Below the pieces are notes generated by a model, which made no database searches, was not told the origin of the DNA, and saw only the letters and a list, made by a program, of their open reading frames with translations. A DNA stretch of 64,000 nt, from contig NC_092089.1 in NCBI RefSeq assembly GCF_045679555.1, positions 2,738,152-2,802,151 of the forward strand, in the 5' to 3' direction. The translations under genes and the position numbers were made by a program. This DNA is from Salvelinus alpinus. Taxonomy: Eukaryota > Chordata > Actinopteri > Salmoniformes > Salmonidae. Positions 12,500-50,299 of this stretch are shown here, in pieces (within the stretch, counting starts at the first letter, position 1; every line of letters starts with the position of its first letter).

Positions 12500-14060
12500 T
12501 GAATCATCCTATATTGTCCCTATTGTCCCTTAGTTTTTATCAAAGATTCTCTGTAATTAGTATTACGTGATCAAACTGATTAATCATGTAACTGTAATTA
12601 ACTAGGAAGTCGGGGCACCAAGGAAAATATTCAGATTACAAAGTTATAATTTTCCAATATAACCTTTCAGATATTTTCATATCTGATCAATAGTCTTCTT
12701 AATTAATGAATTATTTACTTTACCTCACGTTAGTCTCATTCCAAACGTCGTAAACTGTTGGTTATCTGCACGAACCCAGTCTTCACTATGAGTCATCCAT
12801 ACATCAATTGTCTTAAATAATTTATTTATTACTAACTAAGTAATTCACAGAAATGCATAAACAAACAAACAAAGTAAATATGGTTACAAGAAATTATAGG
12901 AGAATGTGCCCTAGTGGGCTAAACCGGCATGGCGGCTTGTTAGACAAAAGAGGGAGAGGGGGTCGACTGAATGTCTTCAGTCGACCCCCTCTCCCTCTTT
13001 TGTCTAACAAGCCGCCATGCCGGTTTAGCCCACTAGGGCTATCAACCCACAGTTGATAATTATAACAATTGAAATGCTAATCCTTTGCATATGAATGCTC
13101 ACTCATTCGGGAACAATTGCAATCAATATATATATTTACGCTCAGTGTATCGTCTTGATCGCTGTTGAAAAGTTAGTTTCCGTTGGAGAGTTTCCGTCCT
13201 CTCACTCTCTCTCTGTCGTAGGTAGTTCAGAGTGACATTCATTCGTGTTGTTGTAGAATGGATGTTTCGGCGGTTGTCGTTCTTCGCGTTCAATGATACC
13301 GAATTCCTAGCTGCAGACTAGTAATTAATATCAAAGACTTGTTCTTATTCTGTCGGTATCGATAGTCTAAGAGTTTAACCACGTGGTATGGTTAAAAGAT
13401 TCAGCAGTCTGGTCTCAAACCTTGGCCCTCTCGTTATCGAGGTAAGCTGGTCTCAAACCTTGGCCCTCTCGTTATCGAGGTAAGCTGGTCTACTGAGAAT
13501 TTCTCAAAGTTGGGTTTTATTCGGAATTGCAGAAAAGGGGCTGTCGCAGAATGCCTGACCCTAACTGGGCTTATGGGCGGTCCTCTGATTTAGTTCAACT
13601 CATGAGGGAATTGGAGTTTCCTTCATTAAACAGTCCAAAATCGCATTACACAATTTTACAAACAGTATCATACTCACTCATTCATCTTATACAACAATTA
13701 GATGTAAACCTCATATCTGAGTCTATTATATAAGCAGCGTTATGGCAATGTGGCTGCACCGTCTCCCATGAGCTTCCCCAAGTTGTAACAAACGGACCAG
13801 TTCGTAGCTGGATTCTTCACCGATCTTTTATACCTTCTCCGGAACGTAAATGTTGTTCGGACCTCAAGTTCTGTGAGGTGGAAGAAATTCCTTTGTTTTC
13901 TATGAAAGCTCACTCTGTCTCCTCATGCACACAGTATAGAGACAATCTCTTCCAGGAATGTACGACCTCTCTGACCACAGCAGCCTAGTTGTAGGGGGCA
14001 GGGAGCGGCAGGGAGAGGGGGATGGGGCTTGCTGTACCCAAAAAGGCCAACGTCATGACA
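12500..14060 (-). mobile_element. LTR-like repeat family, copy 1 (antisense)
   Basis: In reverse complement this matches the copy at 28793-30270 over most of its length (for example the segment around 13300-13410 against 29450-29530) and the copy at 39283-40700. Its right edge ends aacgtcatgaca. The left edge is uncertain. The family has TG...CA ends and no visible coding sequence, so it may be a solo LTR. The copy lies between ORF1 and ORF2 of the antisense L1. A 38-bp segment is duplicated in tandem at about 13412-13487. Confidence 0.55.
12908..13039. repeat. Perfect 64-bp inverted repeat with 4-base loop
   Basis: Bases 12908-12971 are the exact reverse complement of 12976-13039, separated by tgtc. 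The left arm is the sequence native to this LTR-like family (it appears once, as a single arm, at about 29830-29880 in copy 2). The right arm is therefore an inverted duplication. In RNA or single-stranded DNA it would form a 64-bp hairpin. An open frame across it (12853-13056) is a by-product. Confidence 0.95.
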
Positions 14061-32379: not shown

Positions 32380-32443
32380 ATGGGTTGGTCTTGGGCTCTA
32401 GCCTGCTGGTGTGCATTAGTGCTGGTGTCCGCGGCATCTGAAG
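32380..32443 (+). CDS. ecm1: ecm1 exon 1 (signal peptide)
   Basis: ATG at 32380 opens 21 codons plus one base, then donor gtttgt. The peptide is hydrophobic ([12 protein letters not shown]) and ends AAS, a typical signal peptidase site, so the product enters the secretory pathway. No in-frame ATG with a signal sequence lies nearby upstream. Confidence 0.85.
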
Positions 32444-35400
32444 GTTTGTAGCCTACGAGGTTTTTGCATGTAATCATCAGTTCTTTCTATCCTTGTTTTA
32501 TGTACTGGTATGTGTTTATGGCTCCCCTTCTGTTTGTGCATGGTCTGTTAGAAGTGCGCAGAAGAGGCCATTTTTATGCACTATCAAGATCATGAAGAAA
32601 AACATTATTTGTTGGACGTGATACATTCCATTCCACCAGTTTAGTGTGGAACAACTTTGTCCAAGTCTACTAACAGTATAACTATTATTTTGGGTGTAAC
32701 AAACATCTAGACTAAAGAATTCCACCATGTTAATTAAAGGTGCAATATGCAGAAGTGGCCCCGCAATTTCCTGCTTGATCAAATTCAAATTTCAGTTTGT
32801 GACAAAACAAGCGTGTAGAGAATCATTGTACCATCTAAACCGCTATGAAATACATTTTCAATAACCAAAATATTTGTATTTTCAGCTGTTTGAAGCTGGT
32901 ATACAAAACCAGAAGCAAAAATGTAACTTAAGAAATGGGAATGAGAGAAATAGTACACAAAGAACAGATCTTCCGCTTCTTAGACTTGCTTTCAATGAGA
33001 ATAACATATCTATAGGTCATATTTCTATGTGAAATCTAGGTGGTGGACAACAGTACTGGCATTACATGGTCAGAGTGTGATGGCTTATGTAGTAACCAGT
33101 GGACGTGTGTGCCGGTCTCTGTGTTTTTATGTCTGTGTTTACATTCTCTCATCCCTTCCATAGATAAGCCTGACATGTTACAGCGAGAGGCCTCCTTTGA
33201 CCTAGAGGAGCTCCTGCAAGGTTAGTGTGAAATATAGTGTGTGTGAAATGTAGTGTGTGTGAAATGTAGTGTGTGTGAAATGTAGTGTGTGTGTGTGTTT
33301 CAATGCCCTCACAGTGCTGCATGTATATGTCTTCCAGGGGCGAGTCAGCTGGAGCCTGATATGACCCAGAGGGAGGTGGACTTTGGGGGACTCTGGGAGC
33401 CCATAGGTGAGTGTGTTCTTACCATAACTAAGTAACCCATAGGTGAGTGTGTTCTAACTGTAACCCATAGGTGAGTGTGTTCTTACCATAACTAAGTAAC
33501 CCGTAGGTGAGTGTGTTCTTACCATAACTAAGTAACCCGTAGGTGAGTGTGTTCTAACTGTAACCCATAGGTGAGTGTGTTCTTACCATAACTAAGTAAC
33601 CCATAGGTGAGTGTGTTCTTACCATAACTAAGTAACCCGTAGGTGAGTGTGTTCTAACTGTAACCCATAGGTGAGTGTGTTCTTACCATAACTAAGTAAC
33701 CCGTAGGTGAGTGTGTTCTAACTGTAACCCATACGTGAGTGTGTTCTAACTGTAACCCATAGGTGAGTGTGTTCTAACTGTAACCCATAGGTGAGTGTGT
33801 TCTTACCATAACTAAGTAACCAATAGGTGAGTGTGTTCTAACTGTAACCCATAGGTGAGTGTGTTCTAACTGTAACCCATAGGTGAGTGTGTTCTAACTG
33901 TAACCCATAGGTGAGTGTGTTCTAACTGTAACCCATAGGTGAGTGTGTTCTTACCATAACTAAGTAACCCATAGGTGAGTGTGTTCTTACCATAACTAAG
34001 TAACCCATAGGTGAGTGTGTTCTTACCATAACTAAGTAACCCATAGGTGAGTGTGTTCTTACCATAACTAAGTAACCCGTAGGTGAGTGTGTTCTAACTG
34101 TAACCCATAGGTGAGTGTGTTCTTACCATAACTAAGTAACCCGTAGGTGAGTGTGTTCTAACTGTAACCCATAGGTGAGTGTGTTCTTACCATAACTAAG
34201 TAACCCGTAGGTGAGTGTGTTCTAACTGTAACCCATAGGTGAGTGTGTTCTTACCATAACTAAGTAACCCATAGGTGAGTGTGTTCTTACCATAACTAAG
34301 TAACCCATAGGTGAGTGTGTTCTTACCATAACTAAGTAACCCATAGGTGAGTGTGTTCTTACCATAACTAAGTAACCCGTAGGTGAGTGTGTTCTAACTG
34401 TAACCCATAGGTGAGTGTGTTCTTACCATAACTAAGTAACCCGTAGGTGAGTGTGTTCTAACTGTAACCCATAGGTGAGTGTGTTCTTACCATAACTAAG
34501 TAACCAATAGGTGAGTGTGTTCTAACTGTAACCCATAGGTGAGTGTGTTCTAACTGTAACCCATAGGTGAGTGTGTTCTAACTGTAACCCATAGGTGAGT
34601 GTGTTCTAACTGTAACCCATAGGTGAGTGTGTTCTAACTGTAACCCATAGGTGAGTGTGTTCTTACCATAACTAAGTAACCCATAGGTGAGTGTGTTCTA
34701 ACTGTAACCCATAGGTGAGTGTGTTCTAACTGTAACCCATAGGTGAGTGTGTTCTAACTGTAACCCATAGGTGAGTGTGTTCTAACTGTAACCCATAGGT
34801 GAGTGTGTTCTAACTGTAACCCATAGGTGAGTGTGTTCTTACCATAACTAAGTAACCCATAGGTGAGTGTGTTCTAACTGTAACCCATAGGTGAGTGTGT
34901 TCTAACTGTAACCCATAGGTGAGTGTGTTCTAACCATAACTAAGTAACCCATAGGTGAGTTTTTCTAACTGTAACCCATAGGTGAGTGTGTTCTAACTGT
35001 AACCCATAGGTGAGTGTGTTCTAACTGTAACCCATAGGTGAGTGTGTTCTAACTGTAACCCATAGGTGAGTGTGTTCTAACTGTAACCCATAGGTGAGTG
35101 TGTTCTAACTGTAACCCATAGGCGAGTGTGTTCTAACTGTAACCCATAGGTGAGTGTGTTCTAACTGTAACCCATAGGTGAGTGTGTTCTAACTGTAACC
35201 CATAGGTGAGTGTGTTCTTACCATAACTAAGTAACCCATAGGTGAGTGTGTTCTAACTGTAACCCATAGGTGAGTGTGTTCTAACTGTAACCCATAGGCG
35301 AGTGTGTTCTAACTGTAACCCATAGGTGAGTGTGTTCTAACCATAACTAAGTAACCCATAGGTGAGTTTTTCTAACTGTAACCCATAGGTGAGTGTGTTC

Positions 35401-38400
35401 TAACTGTAACCCATAGGTGAGTGTGTTCTAACTGTAACCCATAGGTGAGTGTGTTCTAACTGTAACCCATAGGTGAGTGTGTTCTTACCATAACTAAGTA
35501 ACCCATAGGTGAGTGTGTTTTAACTGTAACCCATAGGTGAGTGTGTTCTTACCATAACTAAGTAACCCATAGGTGAGTGTGTTCTTACCATAACTAAGTA
35601 ACCCATAGGTGAGTTTTTCTAACTGTAACCCATAGGTGAGTGTGTTCTAACTGTAACCCATAGGTGAGTGTGTTCTAACTGTAACCCATAGGTGAGTGTG
35701 TTCTTACCATAACTAAGTAACCCATAGGTGAGTGTGTTCTTACCATAACTAAGTAACCCATAGGTGAGTGTGTTCTAACTGTAACCCATAGGTGAGTGTG
35801 TTCTAACTGTAACCCATAGGTGAGTGTGTTCTAACTGTAACCCATAGGTGAGTGTGTTCTTACCATAACTAAGTAACCCATAGGTGAGTGTGTTCTTACC
35901 ATAACTAAGTAACCCATAGGTGAGTGTGTTCTAACTGTAACCCATAGGTGAGTGTGTTCTTACCATAACTAAGTAACCCATAGGTGAGTGTGTTCTAACT
36001 GTAACCCATAGGTGAGTGTGTTCTAACTGTAACCCATAGGTGAGTGTGTTCTAACTGTAACCCATAGGTGAGTGTGTTCTTACCATAACTAAGTAACCCA
36101 TAGGTGAGTGTGTTTTAACTGTAACCCATAGGTGAGTGTGTTCTTACCATAACTAAGTAACCCATAGGTGAGTTTTTCTAACTGTAACCCATAGGTGAGT
36201 GTGTTCTAACTGTAACCCATAGGTGAGTGTGTTTTAACTGTAACCCATAGGTGAGTGTGTTCTTACCATAACTAAGTAACCCATAGGTGAGTTTTTCTAA
36301 CTGTAACCCATAGGTGAGTGTGTTCTAACTGTAACCCATAGGTGAGTGTGTTCTAACTGTAACCCATAGGTGAGTGTGTTCTAACTGTAACCCATACGTG
36401 AGTGTGTTCTAACTGTAACCCATAGGTGAGTGTGTTCTTACCATAACTAAGTAACCCATAGGTGAGTTTTTCTAACTGTAACCCATAGGTGAGTGTGTTC
36501 TAACTGTAACCCATAGGTGAGTGTGTTTTAACTGTAACCCATAGGTGAGTGTGTTCTTACCATAACTAAGTAACCCATAGGTGAGTTTTTCTAACTGTAA
36601 CCCATAGGTGAGTGTGTTCTAACTGTAACCCATAGGTGAGTGTGTTCTAACTGTAACCCATAGGTGAGTGTGTTCTTACCATAACTAAGTAACCCATAGG
36701 TGAGTGTGTTCTAACTGTAACCCATAGGTGAGTGTGTTCTAACTGTAACCCATAGGTGAGTGTGTTCTAACTGTAACCCATAGGTGAGTGTGTTCTTACC
36801 ATAACTAAGTAACCCATAGGTGAGTGTGTTCTAACTGTAACCCATAGGTGAGTGTGTTCTAACTGTAACCCATAGGTGAATGTGTTCTAACTGTAACCCA
36901 TAGGTGAGTATGTTTTAACTGTAACCCATAGGTGAGTGTGTTCTTACCATAACTAAGTAACCCATAGGTGAGTGTGTTCTAACTGTAACCCATAGGTGAG
37001 TGTGTTCTTACCATAACTAAGTAACCCATAGGTGAGTGTGTTCTAACTGTAACCCATAGGTGAGTGTGTTCTAACTGTAACCCATAGGTGAGTGTGTTCT
37101 AACTGTAACCCATAGGTGAGTGTGTTCTAACTGTAACCCATAGGTGAGTGTGTTCTTACCATAACTAAGTAACCCATAGGTGAGTGTGTTCTAACTGTAA
37201 CCCATAGGTGAGTGTGTTCTAACTGTAACCCATAGGTGAGTGTGTTCTAACTGTAACCCATAGGTGAGTGTGTTCTAACTGTAACCCATAGGTGAGTGTG
37301 TTCTTACCATAACTAAGTAACCCATAGGTGAGTGTGTTCTAACTGTAACCCATAGGTGAGTGTGTTCTAACTGTAACCCATAGGTGAGTGTGTTCTTACC
37401 ATAACTAAGTAACCCATAGGTGAGTGTGTTCTAACTGTAACCCATAGGTGAGTGTGTTCTAACTGTAACCCATAGGTGAGTGTGTTCTAACTGTAACCCA
37501 TAGGTGAGTGTGTTCTTACCATAACTAAGTAACCCATAGGTGAGTGTGTTCTAACTGTAACCCATAGGTGAGTGTGTTCTAACTGTAACCCATAGGTGAG
37601 TGTGTTCTAACTGTAACCCATAGGTGAGTGTGTTCTAACTGTAACCCATAGGTGAGTGTGTTCTAACTGTAACCCATAGGTGAGTGTGTTCTAACTGTAA
37701 CCCATAGGTGAGTGTGTTCTAACTGTAACCCATAGGTGAGTGTGTTCTAACTGTAACCCATAGGAGAGGTGGGGTTTGTTCTATCCAGCCTATTCACAGA
37801 TCTATCAGTGTTAATGAAAGAAAGGAGACGAGAGAAGGAAAGTATTCCAAAGTATTTGGGACACATCCTCTCCTATGCCCATGCCATTCTGCCATGTAAT
37901 TAATACAGTGTAGGCACATGACATGTTTTTAGCGTATGGCTGTCAGTACTCCTGTCTGTCACTGTGTAGAGTTTCCTGGCATGGAGCAGAGAGAGGTCAC
38001 CCATGAACATGTGAAGTCTTACCTGCTCAAGGAGAGAGGTGGGTGGCGATGCCTTCCCTGCTGGTATACTTCATATCACACAGCCAATGGAGTATGACGT
38101 GTGTGTTGTATCCCGTGTGAGGGAGGTACAGTAACAGAAGTGTGTGTTCCCAGCGGGCTCCAGGGCAGCTGAGGTAGACATGACCCAGAGGGAGATCACC
38201 CTGCACCTGGACACAGACTTTACACCTGGAGGTCGGCCGATGGCTGGGCCTCGCTCGTTTGGGGATTCCCACCCCAGTGTCCTCTTCCCCCCCGGTCAGC
38301 CATCCCCTAACAACCTCCAGGCCATCTGTCTCCATAGCAGCCGTCGTCCCCGGTACCCTGCCTACTCCTTACCCCAGACAGGCTTTGGCTACCTTCGTCG

Positions 38401-41400
38401 TCAAGGTGACGCCGTCAACCGGATAGAGTCCTGGTACAGCGCATGTTGCCATAGGAACGGGACACAGCAGGTCCAGGAAGTGATGCTGTGCTGCGTTACA
38501 CAGGCGGTGAGTGTTTCTGTGGCAACATTGGATTCTGTCCTGTTCCATTCTGTCCTGTCGTGTTGTGTTCAGTTCTGGTCCGTTCACTCCTATTGTACCA
38601 ACAGAACCGCTTTCTATGTGCACAGATGTAGTATTGATGAGGACAGACGATGGCTAGGGAAGATGAGACAGTGATGAGGATGTCTAGGGAAGATAAGGAA
38701 AAGGGGGACACCTAGTCAGTTGTACAACTGAATGCATTCAACTGAAATGTGTCTTCTGCATTTAACCCAACCTGAGACAGTAGTAGTGAAGACAGAGGAT
38801 GCATAGGGAAGATGAGACTCAGGAGAAGGAAAGCCCATACAGACACAACAGATCAGCCTTGGCGTCTATCTGTATAGCTGTGTAGAGGGGAAGGTGTTCA
38901 TGAGTCAGGCCCTTGAGGGCTAAAGCTGTACCTTCACCATTTTAGGACTTCTTTTATCTCTATTTCTCATGTGTGAATTGATGTTTGTGTATGTCACTTA
39001 CAGTGGGAACAGACCCTGTCCACATTCTGTACTGATGAGTTCTTAGTGAAGACACGCCACCACCACTGCTGCCAGAAACAGGGCGGGGCCAGACTGAGCT
39101 GTTTCCATAGCCAAACCCCAAACCCCAACTACCTGCCGACCACCCAGGGGGCAGGCTCCTCCCCCATACCTGAACCTGGCTTCACCTTTAACCCCAACAC
39201 TTGTCACAAGTAAGGAGAGAGAGAGACTGGTTTACTTTAGGTTTAGGGTAGGGCTGTTATGGTGACGGTATTAAGTGACTGTTGTCGTGTCTTTGACTAT
39301 GCCAGATTAATTGCTATGACATGCTATTCTATAAAATAATTTCTCCGTAATTAATATTACCTGATTGAACTAATCATGTAAATATTAATTAACGAGAGGG
39401 ACACCACGAAATAATATTTATAGAGCTGTTATCTTCCGAATAAACTCTTAAAGATTTAGTAATATTTTACATCCATAGCAGTCACATTAATCGTCATTTT
39501 ATTCAGTCTCATCTGAAAGTGGTAAATCCTTGGTTATCTGCAAGAATCCTGGCTAACAAGTTGAATCAGCAATACAAAATTGGGTTTAATTATTTATTTA
39601 CTAAATACCTAACTAATCACACAGAAACACACATACACAATTAAATCATAACTTGATTGCAAAGTGCCGTCATAAAGAAAACGTCCCTGGCGGGCAGAAT
39701 AGATATGACAGCTTGTTACACAAAGGGAAGGGGCGGGATTTTAGTGAAAGAGCGGGAGACTGGAACATAGGCGAGCTGTGCTATCGTAAATACAGTATCT
39801 TATGCATTCTAAATTACCGCCCATTTGAAAAAGGAAAATGCAATAAATATTTACTCTGAGCTGCGCTTCAGTAGGTTGGTGGTAGATGGAAGACCGTATC
39901 GCCAACCCGAGTCCTCTGTCCTTTGAAGAATGTCTCTGGTGGTCACTGGATACGTTGGAGTAACGTCGTGTGTAGTAGACGGGAGACTCTGACTGTCCTT
40001 CCTAACCTACGTTTGTAGCAGCTGTTACTAACTCAACGGCTAGGAGGTATCACTTCTGTAGTGAATACGAGTTCAAAGTTCATACCATTTACAACCAAAG
40101 TCCATGCTGATGTTGGCTTAGTTCTGTAGTTATTATCTGAACCATTCTGACATCGGATCGTCATCCTAAATGTACCCGGAACAGGAAGTTATATTTTTGT
40201 CAATGGCTTTTATAGTGGAGGGAGAGGGGTGTGTCTGAAAAGTTTATAACCCATGTCTCTTCACAGGGGCGGGCCCCTAGTTGAGCAGAAGCCCAAATTT
40301 ATGAAAATCCAAATCTCTCATTTGGAAGCTAAAATTACATTTAATCTCTTCACAAATAATTTCATATTCAAACATTTGAATTAAACAACAATTCCATGTG
40401 AATCCGATACCTCTGACGTTTAGACTTTCCACAGTAGAGTTTATGTCATTCTATCATTGATGAGAATGTGTCAGAGGGCAACCGAACTGACATAATATAC
40501 CTTAAGTACCACCGCATATGTTCAGTTGGTCGGATTACCAGAATATAGTTCATTTCCCCCCCAACTTCTGATGTTCTCAGAATCTCTATGTTAACCAATG
40601 GGTTTTCTTATGTCACATCAGTTATAGTAGGGAGAGAGAAAAAGGGGGAAAGAGGTATTTATGACTGTCATAAACCTACCCCCAACCCAACGTCATGACA
40701 CTGTTTAGTCACGGTAACTAGGCTTCTCCAAAACTGCGCTCTAATGGTCATTAGTAGAGTACCAAACTTGCTAACAGTCAGTTGCTAATGTGCTGGTACT
40801 CAGCACCTTACTGTCTCGCTAATCACTCTGACATCAATAGAAATGTAATCGAAAATCTAATCAAACACTTCGTGAGAACCCATGAGCTCATGTTGCGCAA
40901 CAGTTCTATAGGCTATGCAATCGACAAAACAATTTTTATGGCCTCTTTTAAAAATAGGATCCCATCAGCTTTCTATAGGCCAGGCCTACTATATTTATTT
41001 CTCAACTTTCCAAATATTAAGCACATTGCTTCGATTTACAACAGGAGTATAACCTACCTGGCTGCATGAAAATGAACTATGGGAAAAGCTCCCCTATACC
41101 AATAGGTGCATGATAATGGTCCATTCTAAATCACAACACATTTCACACATATATTATTTAGTATGTGTAAAGACAAGATTAAAATAGTCTGATGGGTGAC
41201 AATATTATCACTTGTGAATGATGTATTATCACTTAATGATTCCCTGCATGTGCAGTTCGGCAAGACACAGCGCGTGCCATTTTTAGTCCTACTTTTTCAA
41301 ATCGCACGTCATGTAGCCTAGCCCATAGGCCTATATGTTTTGATAAGGTTTGTATCATAACTAACGTGGCCAAATAACTCCAAACACAGCCTGCAGACCT

Positions 41401-44400
41401 TACCGTGTCCTAAGAGAGCACATAGCCTACAGACCTAGAACCCCTGGGACACGGTAAGAGAGCACATAGCCTACAAACCTAGAACCCCTGGGACACGGTA
41501 AGAGAGCACATAGCCTACAGACCTAGAACCCCTGGGACACGGTAAGAGAGCACATAGCCTACAGACCTAGAACACATGGGACACGGTAAGAGAGCACATA
41601 GCCTACAGACCTAGAACCCCTGGGACACGGTAAGAGAGCACATAGCCTACAGGTCTAGAACCCCTGGGACACGGTAAGAGAGCACATAGCCTACAGACCT
41701 AGAACCCCTGGGACACGGTAAGAGAGCACATAGCCTACAGACCTAGAACCCCTGGGACACGGTAAGAGAGCACATAGCCTACAGACCTAGAACACATGGG
41801 ACACGGTAAGAGAGCACATAGCCTACAGACCTAGAACCCCTGGGACACGGTAAGAGAGCACATAGCCTACAGACCTAGAACCCCTGGGACACGGTAAGAG
41901 AGCACATAGCCTACAGACCTTGAACCCCTGGGACACGGTAAGAGAGCACATAGCCTACAGACCTAGAACCCCTGGGACACGGTAAGAGAGCACATAGCCT
42001 ACAGACCTAGAACCCCTGGGACACGGTAAGAGAGCACATAGCCTACAGACCTAGAACCCCTGGGACACGGTAAGAGAGCACATAGCCTACAGACCTAGAA
42101 CCCCTGGGAGACGGTAAGAGAGCACATAGCCTACAGGTCTAGTGAAACATGTGTTCTTATAAACCCAGTCATTGCACAGTTGGGTGTGAAAACATAGTTT
42201 TGACTGGCCACTATATAAAAGAGGATCACAGCTTTCTTGTGCTGATATATTTATGTCTCAATTCTTAAAATGAAGCACATTCATCTGCTTTACAACCGGT
42301 GTAGCCTAACTGGCATACATAGGCAGTGCATGAGTTTCATATTTGGGGAAGATATGTTTCACCATAAAAATGCACCTTTTATAATAAAGCATTACATGCA
42401 TATAATGCTGTTTCTTATGTAAAATAGCCTACTATTGGAAATGTAAGTAGATTGGATGGTCATAATTTAGGCTAATAATAGAACTCAATCATTGTTTGCA
42501 AAAAAGTGAGCGTGTATAGCTGAGCGTGTATAGCATAGACTAGAGTATGGCTAGGCTGTATCAGATAGGCCTACGTTTATTCTTTCTTTGAACGGGAAAA
42601 ATGTTGTCTTTTTATAAACACATTTCATGCATTTCTACTAAACTATTTATGACTGGAGACATGAGCAGAATATGTTTTTAATAGGACAAGTTAAAGGGTA
42701 GCCTATTCTGCTGACAGTGGCAACAATTTCAATAAAAAACGACACTGTCTATATAATAGGCCTACGAGAAGGGCACAAATAGAATATGACGTCCATCTAA
42801 ACTGGAAGAGGTGGGCCATTCTAATCAAAAGTAATTCCACACATATTAGTAGGCTATATGTAAAGATCAGATTAAATTAAGAATAGTCTGATGGGTGAGA
42901 ATATTATCAAGTGCTTGTCACATTGTGAATGATGAAGTGTGTGCAGCCTGCGCAAGAAACAGAGCAGAGCACATGCCTTTCCTGCTTTTTTCAAAAGCAT
43001 CATCAGTCGCATCATGCAGACTTAGAACCTATTAAATATCAAAACCTATAGCCTAACATTTGTATGACAACTAAAGTTGCATAAATAACTCAGAATTAAG
43101 CATATAAAGTGCATTCGGAAGTATTCAGACCCCTTGACTTTTTCCATTCTTTGTTATGTTACAGCCTTATTCTAAACTGGATTAAATCGCTTTTACCCCC
43201 TCAATCTACACACAATACCCCATAATGCAAAAACATGTATTTATTTTTATACAGAAATGTGACTTTTACATAAGTATTCAGACCCATTACATTCAGTGCT
43301 TAGGGTCGTTGTCCTATAGGAAGGTGAACCTTTGTCCCAGTCTGAGGTCCTGAGTGCTCTGGAGCAGGTTCTCATCAAGGATCTCTGTACTTTGCACCAT
43401 TCATCTTTCCCTAGACCCTGACTAGTCTTCCAGTCCCTGCCGCTGAAAACCCTCCCCACAGCATGATGCTGCCACCACCATGCTTCACTATAGGGATGGT
43501 GCCAGGTTTCTTCCAGACGTGACACTTTGCATTCAGGCCAAAAGTTCAGTTTTGGTTTCATCAGACCAGAGAATCTTGTTTCTCATGATCTGAGATTCCT
43601 TTAGGTGCCTTTGGGCAAACTCCAAGCGGAATGTCATGTGCCTTTTACTGAGGAGTGACTTCTGTCTGGCCGCTCTACCGTAAAGGCCTGTTTGGGGGAG
43701 TACTGCAGAGACGGGAGAACCTTCCAGAAGGACAACCATCTCCACAGAGGAACTCTGGAGTTCTGTCAGAGTAACCATCGGGTTCTTGGGCACCTCCCTG
43801 ACCAAGGCCGTTCTCCCCTGATTGCTCAGTTTGGCCCGGATGGCCAGCTCTAGGAAGAGTCTTGGTGGTTCCAAACTTCTTCCATTTAAGAATGATGGAG
43901 CCCACTGTGTTCTTGGGGACCTTCAATGCTGCAGAAATGTTTTGGTACCCTTCCCCAGATCTGTCCCTCGACACAATCCTGTCTCGGAGCTCTATGGACA
44001 ATTCCTTCGAACCCATGGCTTGGATTTTGCTCTGACATGCACTGCCAACTGTGGGACTCACAAACCATAATTTTAATCATTGCAATCAAAACAGGTGTTA
44101 GAGAGAGGGTGGACGTAAAGGTAATGGCGGACTGAACGAAGTTATGTAGAGCACCTCAAGATAAAATGTAATATTCAATATCGGCAAGTTAGACTAAAAT
44201 ATCAGCACTACATAATCTGGTGGGTGATAACCTTCAATCTGGATAATAACACAAAACAAATCTTAAGACTAGAGACATTTATCGACAAATATTACGAAAA
44301 CAAGCAACACCCAAACATGAAGGAGAGTAAGACAGGGGAACCGATTTCAAAACGGAAACGTGACTCTTCTACAGACACAGACAATTTCATATTTTCACCA

Positions 44401-47400: not shown

Positions 47401-50299
47401 ACCGAGTGGCTAGGACAGGCAAGCCCCATACTATTGTGGATCACTTAATTCTTCCTGCTGCCGCGGATATGGCTGGGACAATGCTGGGGGAAAAGGCCAA
47501 AAAAACTATACAGACAATGCCTTCATCAAACAACAGTTTCATGACGCATCAGTGACATGGCAGGTGATGTTTTGAAACAATTACTGCTTCGCATACAAGC
47601 CAGTGAATTCTATGCGTTACAGCTGGATGAGTCAACAGACGTGGCGGGCCTGGCACAGCTACTGGTATATGTCCGTTACGTTTATGGGGTGTCAATTAAG
47701 GAAGACATCCTCTTCTGCAAACCACTGGAAACCAGGACAACAGGAGAGGATATTTTTAAAGTACTGGACAGCTTTGTGACATTAAATGGACTTTGGTGGT
47801 CAAGATGTGTTGGTATCTGTACTGATGGTGCAAAATCCATGACAGGGAGACATAGTGGAGTGGTAACGCGCGTGCAAGCAGTTGCTCCTGACGCCACTTG
47901 GGTACACTGCAGCATCCACCAAGAGGCTCTTGCTGCCAAGGGAATGCCTGACAGCTTGAAAGATGTTTTGGACACTACAGTGAAAATGGTTAACTTTGTT
48001 AAAGCAAGGCCCTTGAATTCTCGTGTATTTTCTGCACTATGCAATGATAAGGGCAGCGACCATGTAACGCTTTTACAAAATACAGAAGTGCGCTGGTTAT
48101 CAAGAAGCAAAGTATTGACACGTTTTTTTTAATTGAGAGACGAGCTTAAAGTTTACTTTACTGACCATCATTTTCACTTGTCTGACTGCTTGCATGATGC
48201 CGAGTTTCTCACACGACTGGCCTATCTGGGTGATGTTTTTTCTCGCCTGAATGATCTGAATCTAGGATTCAAGGGACTCTGCAACTATATTCAATGTGCG
48301 GGACAAAATTGAGGCTATGATTAAGAAGTTGGAGCTCTTCTCTGTCTGCATTAACAAGGACAACACACAGGTCTTTCCATTATTGTATGATTTTTTTGTG
48401 TGCAAATGAACTCAAGCTGATGGACAATGTCAAATGTGATATAGCGAAGCACCTGAGTGAGTTGGGTGTGCAATTACGCAGGTACTTTCCTGAAATGGAT
48501 GACACAAACAACTGGATTCGTTATCCCTTTCATGCCCTGCCTCCAGTCCACTTACCGATATCTGAACAAGAGAGCCTCATCGAAGTTGCAACAAACGGTT
48601 ATGTGAAAATGTAATTTAATCAGAAGCCACTGCCAGATTTCTGGATTGGGCTGCACTCAGAGTATCCTGCCTTGGCAATTTGCACTGTTAAGACACTGAT
48701 GCCCTTTGCAACCATGTACCTATGTGAGAGTGGATTCTCGGCCCTCACTAGCATGAAGACTAAATACAGGCACAGACTGTGTGTGGAATATGATTTAAGA
48801 CTGAGACTCTCTCCAAACAAACCCAACATTGCAGAGTTATGTGCATCCTTTCAAGCACACCTTTTTCATTAACCTGTGGTGAGTTATTCACAATTTTCGA
48901 TTAACAAATAAGGTTTTATATGTAAGATGGTTAAATAAAGAGCAAAATTATTGATTATTATTTTATTATTATTTGTACCCTGGTCCTATAAGAGCTCTTT
49001 GTCACTTCCCACGACCCGGGTTGAGACAAACTCACACTCATTCTTATGTTTAATAAATGTATCGTACAGTGTGTGTGTGGCAGGCTTACAATGATGGCAA
49101 CAACAAAAAACATTTGAGTGTGAGCTGACCCTGGTGCTAGAAGGGGTACACAGCTGGAGGTTGAATGTCTGAAGGGGTACGGGACTATAAAAAGTTTGGG
49201 AACCGCTGGTGTAGGCTATATTAAATGGATTTATTAGACTTTTTCAAATGTAGATGTTCCTAAGGTCTGCATCAGTGGCTTGTAGGCTATGGAATGCGTG
49301 GAAGTCAGATGCTCAACGTGTTTATGTAGGCCTAATTAACTGTCAATTACCGTGAGACTGACAGTGGCATCAGTGGCTTGTAGGCTATGTGTGGAAGTCA
49401 GGAGATTCTAAATGTGTTTATGTAGGCCTAATCAACTTTCAATTACTGTCAAGTTATTTGCATGACAATCACCGGCAGACAACATGTAATGACCTCCACA
49501 GCCCTAGTTTAGGGTTAATGTTAAGTTCAAATTGTCCTTTTTTATGGCAACTAATGACTACATGTATTGTGTCCTTTCCTCCCAGGTCCCAGCCCGGTCT
49601 GCGTACTATCAGAGGGGAGAAGCCCAAGAAGAGCCCCCAAGGTTCTCCCAGAGACTCTAACATCAGCTTCCCCCCTGGACGCCCCACTTTCGACAACATC
49701 GGATTGGTCTGCCGTCTACGCAAGCACCGCCCTCTCTACACCCCCAAGTGCCTGCCACGTACAGGCTTTGGCTGGCTGGCCCGCCAATCAAAAGCCGTGA
49801 ACCACCTGGAGAGAGGGTTCAAACACTGCTGTAAGGGACAGGAGGACGTGCTACCCTGTGCTGAGGGAAAGGTAAGGAGCAGTGTGTGTGTGTGTGTGTG
49901 TGTGTTATGGCCTGCCTACCTGCACTTGGTAACGTGGGAAAAGTAAGGATCCAATTCATACCTACACTGAAGAAGGCTGATAAACCGAAACATGTGTATA
50001 AACTATCCTCTATACAGTGAACAATAATATATATTTTTTCATCTCTCTCCTCTCTTAGTGGCGTGAGGTGCTTGACAGGTTCTGTGAGGAAGAGCAGAAG
50101 GGGAGACTTCGCAACTCCCCATGTTGTGATGTGGGAGAAGGTGAGGAGAGGTACACCTGTTTCTCCTCCCGCGCCCCTCATCCAGACTATGACCAAAAGC
50201 TCGACTCTGCCACTGCAGCACCACAGACTCACACCCTCGGACACATCTGTGAAACATACAAGATCATCAAGAAGAAGTAAGTGTGTTTGTTTAGCATTA

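Follow-up and report, generated by a model that had tools for sequence, protein, structure and literature searches.

The ecm1 gene of Salvelinus alpinus raises the question of why one of its introns should consist almost entirely of copies of its own 5' splice site, and whether so many donors in a row serve the gene or are only tolerated by it. The gene lies in the stretch of 64,000 nucleotides analysed in this work, referred to as the window, and its features are listed in Table 1. Exon 5 gave a match to the ECM1 family of Pfam (PF05782, E 2.9e-17). When joined, exons 2, 3 and 4 form a single open frame, with boundaries that were read from the DNA and not from RNA, and skipping of the 69-nt exon 3 would keep the frame. 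A further ECM1-type exon is present at 49617-49835 and corresponds to positions 140-196 of the PF05782 profile, the same part as exon 5. This exon is either a second domain of the window ecm1 or part of a neighbouring gene, and a counterpart also lies beside the second ecm1 copy described below.

In the assembly sequence, the tandem array of intron 3 was found to contain 144 starts of the CCCATAGG type. A donor-like site follows 143 of these starts, and the final one runs into unique sequence. The exact motif TAGGTGAGT (TAG/GTGAGT) is present at 138 of the 143 donor-like sites, and all 138 occurrences on the + strand of the whole window fall inside the array. The 142 gaps between successive donors measure 28 bases (90 gaps), 36 bases (45 gaps) or 27 bases (7 gaps). 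The 143 complete units of the array fall into 12 sequence types. A 28-bp unit (71 copies) and a 36-bp unit (42 copies) predominate, ahead of a 28-bp variant (8 copies) and a 27-bp unit (7 copies). TRF identified the same array at 33432-37768, with a period of 28 and 142.6 copies, and about 95% of intron 3 is occupied by it. The repeated element is the splice junction itself: the first unit starts at 33400 with CCCATAG, the last 7 bases of exon 3. An earlier note on this DNA had claimed that intron 3 holds about 140 copies of its 5' splice site and that the array begins at the exon 3/intron 3 boundary, and both claims were borne out.

Table 1. Features of the ecm1 locus in the window, and minisatellites common to the window and the second ecm1 copy
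Feature	Position in window	Strand	Copies in window	Copies in second copy	Remark
ecm1 exon 1, coding part from ATG	32380..32443	+			end by eye, GAAG/GTTTGT
ecm1 exon 2	33164..33220	+			read from sequence; identical in second copy
ecm1 exon 3, 69 nt	33338..33406	+			phase 1 at start and end; identical in second copy
ecm1 intron 3, 4563 nt	33407..37969	+			read from sequence
ecm1 exon 4	37970..38038	+			read from sequence
ecm1 exon 5, ECM1 domain (PF05782)	38154..38506	+			end by eye, GCG/GTGAGT
Tandem array, 28-/36-/27-bp units, 143 donor-like sites	33400..37764	+			unit counts, TRF; ends on last CCCATAGG
Presumed authentic intron 3 donor GTGAGT	33407..33412	+			sole frame-keeping donor
142 inner donor-like sites	33443..37741	+			first starts 33443, last starts 37736; all lead to TAA in first retained unit
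44-bp minisatellite	41411-42136		16.5	44.8	
62-bp minisatellite			9.0	14.0	
7-bp minisatellite			8.0	18.3	
34-bp minisatellite			7.1	2.1	
16-bp minisatellite			4.3	3.3	

A protein search of the whole genome, covering this single genome, returned six places. One of these, at 28.42 Mb of the same contig (C4), is a second ecm1 copy with an exon 5 that is 97% identical to that of the window ecm1. It carries the same array at the same junction, but with 9 donors in an intron of 488 nt, so that the donor number of the two copies (143 versus 9) differs about sixteenfold. Since the second copy carries the same array, a wholesale misassembly of the array in the window appears unlikely, and its position at the same junction in both copies suggests that the array probably predates their divergence. 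In the surrounding region, the aligned pieces of more than 200 bases are 90-98% identical. In the parts of the two copies that were compared, no difference was found in exons 2 and 3; exon 1 has 1 changed base, exon 5 has 5, and exon 4 has 3 together with an insertion of 9 bases. The unique 3' part of intron 3, including its own acceptor, is common to both copies. A third copy (L020, C4:2349500-2359000, minus strand, with the match at C4:2.352 Mb) is broken. It has a stop codon in exon 5, the start of its exon 3 is joined to exon 5, and exon 4 and the array are gone; the break looks as if it had been produced by an exchange between related MTQRE stretches. The other three places, on C29, at 49.6 kb of the window and at C4:28.43 Mb, are distant ECM1-type exons. 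Further places on C19, C25, C5 and C26, with a match of 67-75%, were set aside, as their arrays were seen by eye to have other units.

Donor choice has predictable consequences for the message. Only donor 1 leaves the frame open over exons 2-4, whereas the remaining 142 donors all meet the same TAA within the first retained unit, which is of the 36-bp type. The earlier proposals that the use of any inner donor would introduce an early stop, and that only the first donor is productive, therefore hold across the entire array. By their computed pairing with U1, the array donors are nearly all equal and strong: a value of -12.5 kcal/mol was obtained at 131 of the 143 sites. A perfect site would reach -14.0 kcal/mol, and exons 2, 4 and 5 have donors at -8.6, -11.1 and -11.3 kcal/mol, respectively. 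When scored with frequency tables, the array donor falls at the 99.8th percentile among the 3831 GTs of the window outside the array.

We consider it likely that the array is a largely neutral minisatellite that originated at the exon 3/intron 3 junction, with donor 1 productive and the next few donors leaking. Exon 3 is probably defined outward from its own acceptor, which would leave donor 1 and the next few donors to compete; by arithmetic, exon 3 would not exceed 300 nt with any of donors 1 to 7 (33407 to 33607). Use of donor 1 would result in the ecm1 mRNA, leakage into the next few donors would generate an early-stop mRNA that is probably destroyed, and the far donors may bind U1 but would seldom be used. 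A counterpoint to this reading is the nearly uniform strength of the array donors noted above. Work on competing donors suggests that the one closest to the acceptor could be favoured, and such a preference would leave the window allele nearly dead.

The early stop that is common to all 142 inner donors would also be expected of a length-dependent brake, in which more donors cause a larger share of the transcripts to be lost via inner donors and the long copy yields little product. The two ecm1 copies, with their 143 and 9 donors, offer a ready-made contrast for this idea. However, from the eighth donor onward exon 3 would exceed 300 nt, so that extra length may matter little, and exons 1-5 are open in the compared stretches, with little difference between the copies. 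We regard a brake of this kind as unlikely.

The 36-bp unit has a feature of its own, a CTTACC that is complementary to the GGTGAG of the same unit and can form a hairpin with it. The fold energy of this unit, with GGUGAG on CUUACC, is -7.6 kcal/mol, as compared to -1.5 kcal/mol for the 28-bp unit. CTTACC resembles the 5' end of U1, and donor 1 sits in a CTTACC-bearing 36-bp unit in both ecm1 copies, that of the window and that at C4:28.42 Mb. Masking by the hairpin as a donor switch was dropped, since donor accessibility is alike in both unit types: in the local folding of 33200-34800, the median unpaired probability of the donor 9-mer was 0.0014 (20 donors, 36-bp units) versus 0.0021 (24 donors, 28-bp units).

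The statement that only one acceptor follows the donors has to be qualified, as the CATAG of each unit is a YAG acceptor-like site, although these sites score low. On a scoring matrix, the unit acceptors reach the 80th (28-bp) and 64th (36-bp) percentile of the 3769 AGs of the window, below all four authentic acceptors tested (percentiles 89, 95, 96 and 98). A unit that doubled as acceptor would make TAG/GT a zero-length exon, and the array could be removed stepwise, or retained units could be re-spliced, with the right mRNA restored. Such a role would be in line with the TAG/GTGAGT of each intact unit and with the branch-point-like TTCTAAC found in most 28-bp units, the penultimate base of which, an A, lies 14 nt before the junction. 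Pyrimidines make up 10 of the 16 bases before the unit AG, the same number as at the authentic acceptor of exon 3 and more than the 7 of 16 at that of exon 5. The low percentiles of the unit acceptors argue against this reading, to which we assign a very small probability. Because the bond at which each unit can act as a donor is also its potential acceptor bond, the array might also erase itself: a transcript that had used an inner donor could undergo a second splicing event between donor 1 and the last TAG retained, by which the exact exon 3-exon 4 junction would be restored. This seems highly improbable to us; if true, the gene could bear any number of units harmlessly, and the array would serve as a natural ladder by which successive rounds of splicing could be counted.

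Two known systems are relevant in this context. Known recursive splice sites stand apart in long introns. The ecm1 array resembles them in having YAG/GT at one bond, in 138 exact copies, but its acceptor part scores low on the scoring matrix, whereas a typical acceptor part is described for the known sites (PMC5126111). The other system is intron gain by tandem duplication of AGGT segments, as in the Rogers model, the case of ATP2A1/ATP2A2 and the 24-bp arrays in fission yeast (PMC4974935). There, as in ecm1, the tandem units hold AG/GT, and the published splicing across such segments, which can restore the original junction, lends support to the idea of units that double as acceptors. However, those duplications arise in exons and make an intron, whereas the ecm1 array arose at the edge of an existing one. 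It lies within intron 3 and not in a new intron made of formerly exonic sequence, since the unique 3' part of intron 3 and its acceptor are also present in the second copy.

Another proposal of the earlier note was that the array serves as a platform for U1 binding, which would protect the transcript from premature polyadenylation. The 138 exact TAG/GTGAGT sites within 4.4 kb, with their strong computed pairing, would suit such a function. However, AATAAA and ATTAAA, the two hexamers searched, are absent from the sense strand of 32734-39438 and hence from intron 3, and a U1 shield would therefore have no such signal to guard there. Just 9 units are present in the second copy, and donor triplets are not in excess of a reversed control in this genome. 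Given these observations, we view the protective platform as very unlikely.

The ends of the array point to how the neutral minisatellite that we favour may have been born. The 8 bases of CCCATAGG are present at both ends; the left copy spans the exon-intron junction, and the right one is followed by unique intron sequence that is common to both gene copies. Minisatellite birth is usually attributed to slippage between short repeats of this sort. In ecm1, such slippage, or an unequal exchange, between the CCCATAGG repeats would have duplicated the intervening stretch, donor included, so that the junction would have been captured without any function. The array would then be tolerated and not selected, and the presence of the second gene copy may have eased this tolerance. 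Variation among the units was analysed over the 20 bases common to all unit types, and of the 7 substitution types found there, 3 lie within the donor 9-mer, which accounts for 9 of the 20 positions (p = 1.0). Two of the three donor-changing substitution types each occur in two units. Changes at donor positions affect 5 units and changes at the other 11 positions 17 units, and 7 units have a 1-base shortening beside the donor, counts that reflect copying as much as mutation. There is thus no sign of protection of the inner donors, in a test of very little power (7 variant types, units homogenised by exchange). Block duplication was not evident either when judged by repeated runs of unit types, as the longest such run was 9 units, compared to 8.0 on average and 14 at most among 500 shuffles.

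Minisatellites abound around the gene. TRF returned 26 rows for the window, some of them overlapping, and five other minisatellites that also occur beside the second ecm1 gene have more copies there in three cases and fewer in two (Table 1). A 38-bp tandem duplication containing GAGGTAAG is located at 13409-13491. Across the genome, donor triplets, defined as three AGGTRAGT at spacings of 20-48 bases, are not over-represented, with 6665 + 6140 matches versus 7224 + 7246 for the reversed control, figures that count matches and not arrays. Among the matches listed, 7 clusters were noted by eye within 5.9 Mb from the start of contig C1, and 2 of the 6 that were inspected (L060 and L061) appear, by eye, to begin at a coding exon end. 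In L061 (C1:2177000-2181500), an open frame of 63 codons or more is followed by 3 donors at a spacing of 40, and the repeat begins within the apparent exon, in a layout as in ecm1; a genome search with this frame matched only itself, and its coding status is putative. L060 has 3 donors after a short open stretch, upstream of which a TTTTAG was seen by eye. L063 has 21 donors and one frame open across 87 translated bases, and L059, L062 and L064 did not have, by eye, the look of an array starting at a coding exon end. These few cases lead us to infer that splice-junction-seeded arrays may be a recurring by-product of a minisatellite-rich genome. The exact 40-base array pattern had 0 matches in viral and prokaryote contig collections, which has no bearing on other fish. 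A useful role for the array is not supported: donor-breaking variants occur, donor triplets are not in excess, and the two copies have 143 versus 9 donors. It is the neutral minisatellite, which the earlier note had kept as a fallback, that fits best.

Minisatellites made of donors are already known as a kind from IFI6. The IFI6 minisatellite stands at an exon-intron boundary and has about 26 units of 12 bp, whereas in ecm1 the units measure 28 or 36 bp and the donors number 143. The likeness consists in tandem units that each hold a donor consensus, in ecm1 exact in 138 of 143 cases, and in an array that starts at the exon-intron boundary with the first unit in frame. For IFI6, two downstream repeat units are reported to serve as donors, resulting in three mRNA species (PMC4526556), which is a precedent for the leakage into the next few donors proposed for ecm1. 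In contrast to this reported use of several donors, the inner donors of ecm1 are putative sites that, like the exon they follow, are known from sequence alone, and they give an early stop. No report of the ecm1 array was found in the literature on donor minisatellites or on ecm1, as covered by titles and abstract openings, with most subscription journals outside this coverage.

We regard as new the donor number and the presence, within one genome, of a matched copy with a short array. The array represents an extreme natural test of how one splice site is chosen among many identical ones. In the pair of genes with 143 and 9 donors, the rule of donor choice, be it the first donor, the one nearest the acceptor or a limit set by exon size, is readable from ordinary RNA data without the need for constructs. 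The ecm1 locus also suggests that a splice junction can seed a minisatellite, and that the structure of a gene thereby gains length that is unstable.
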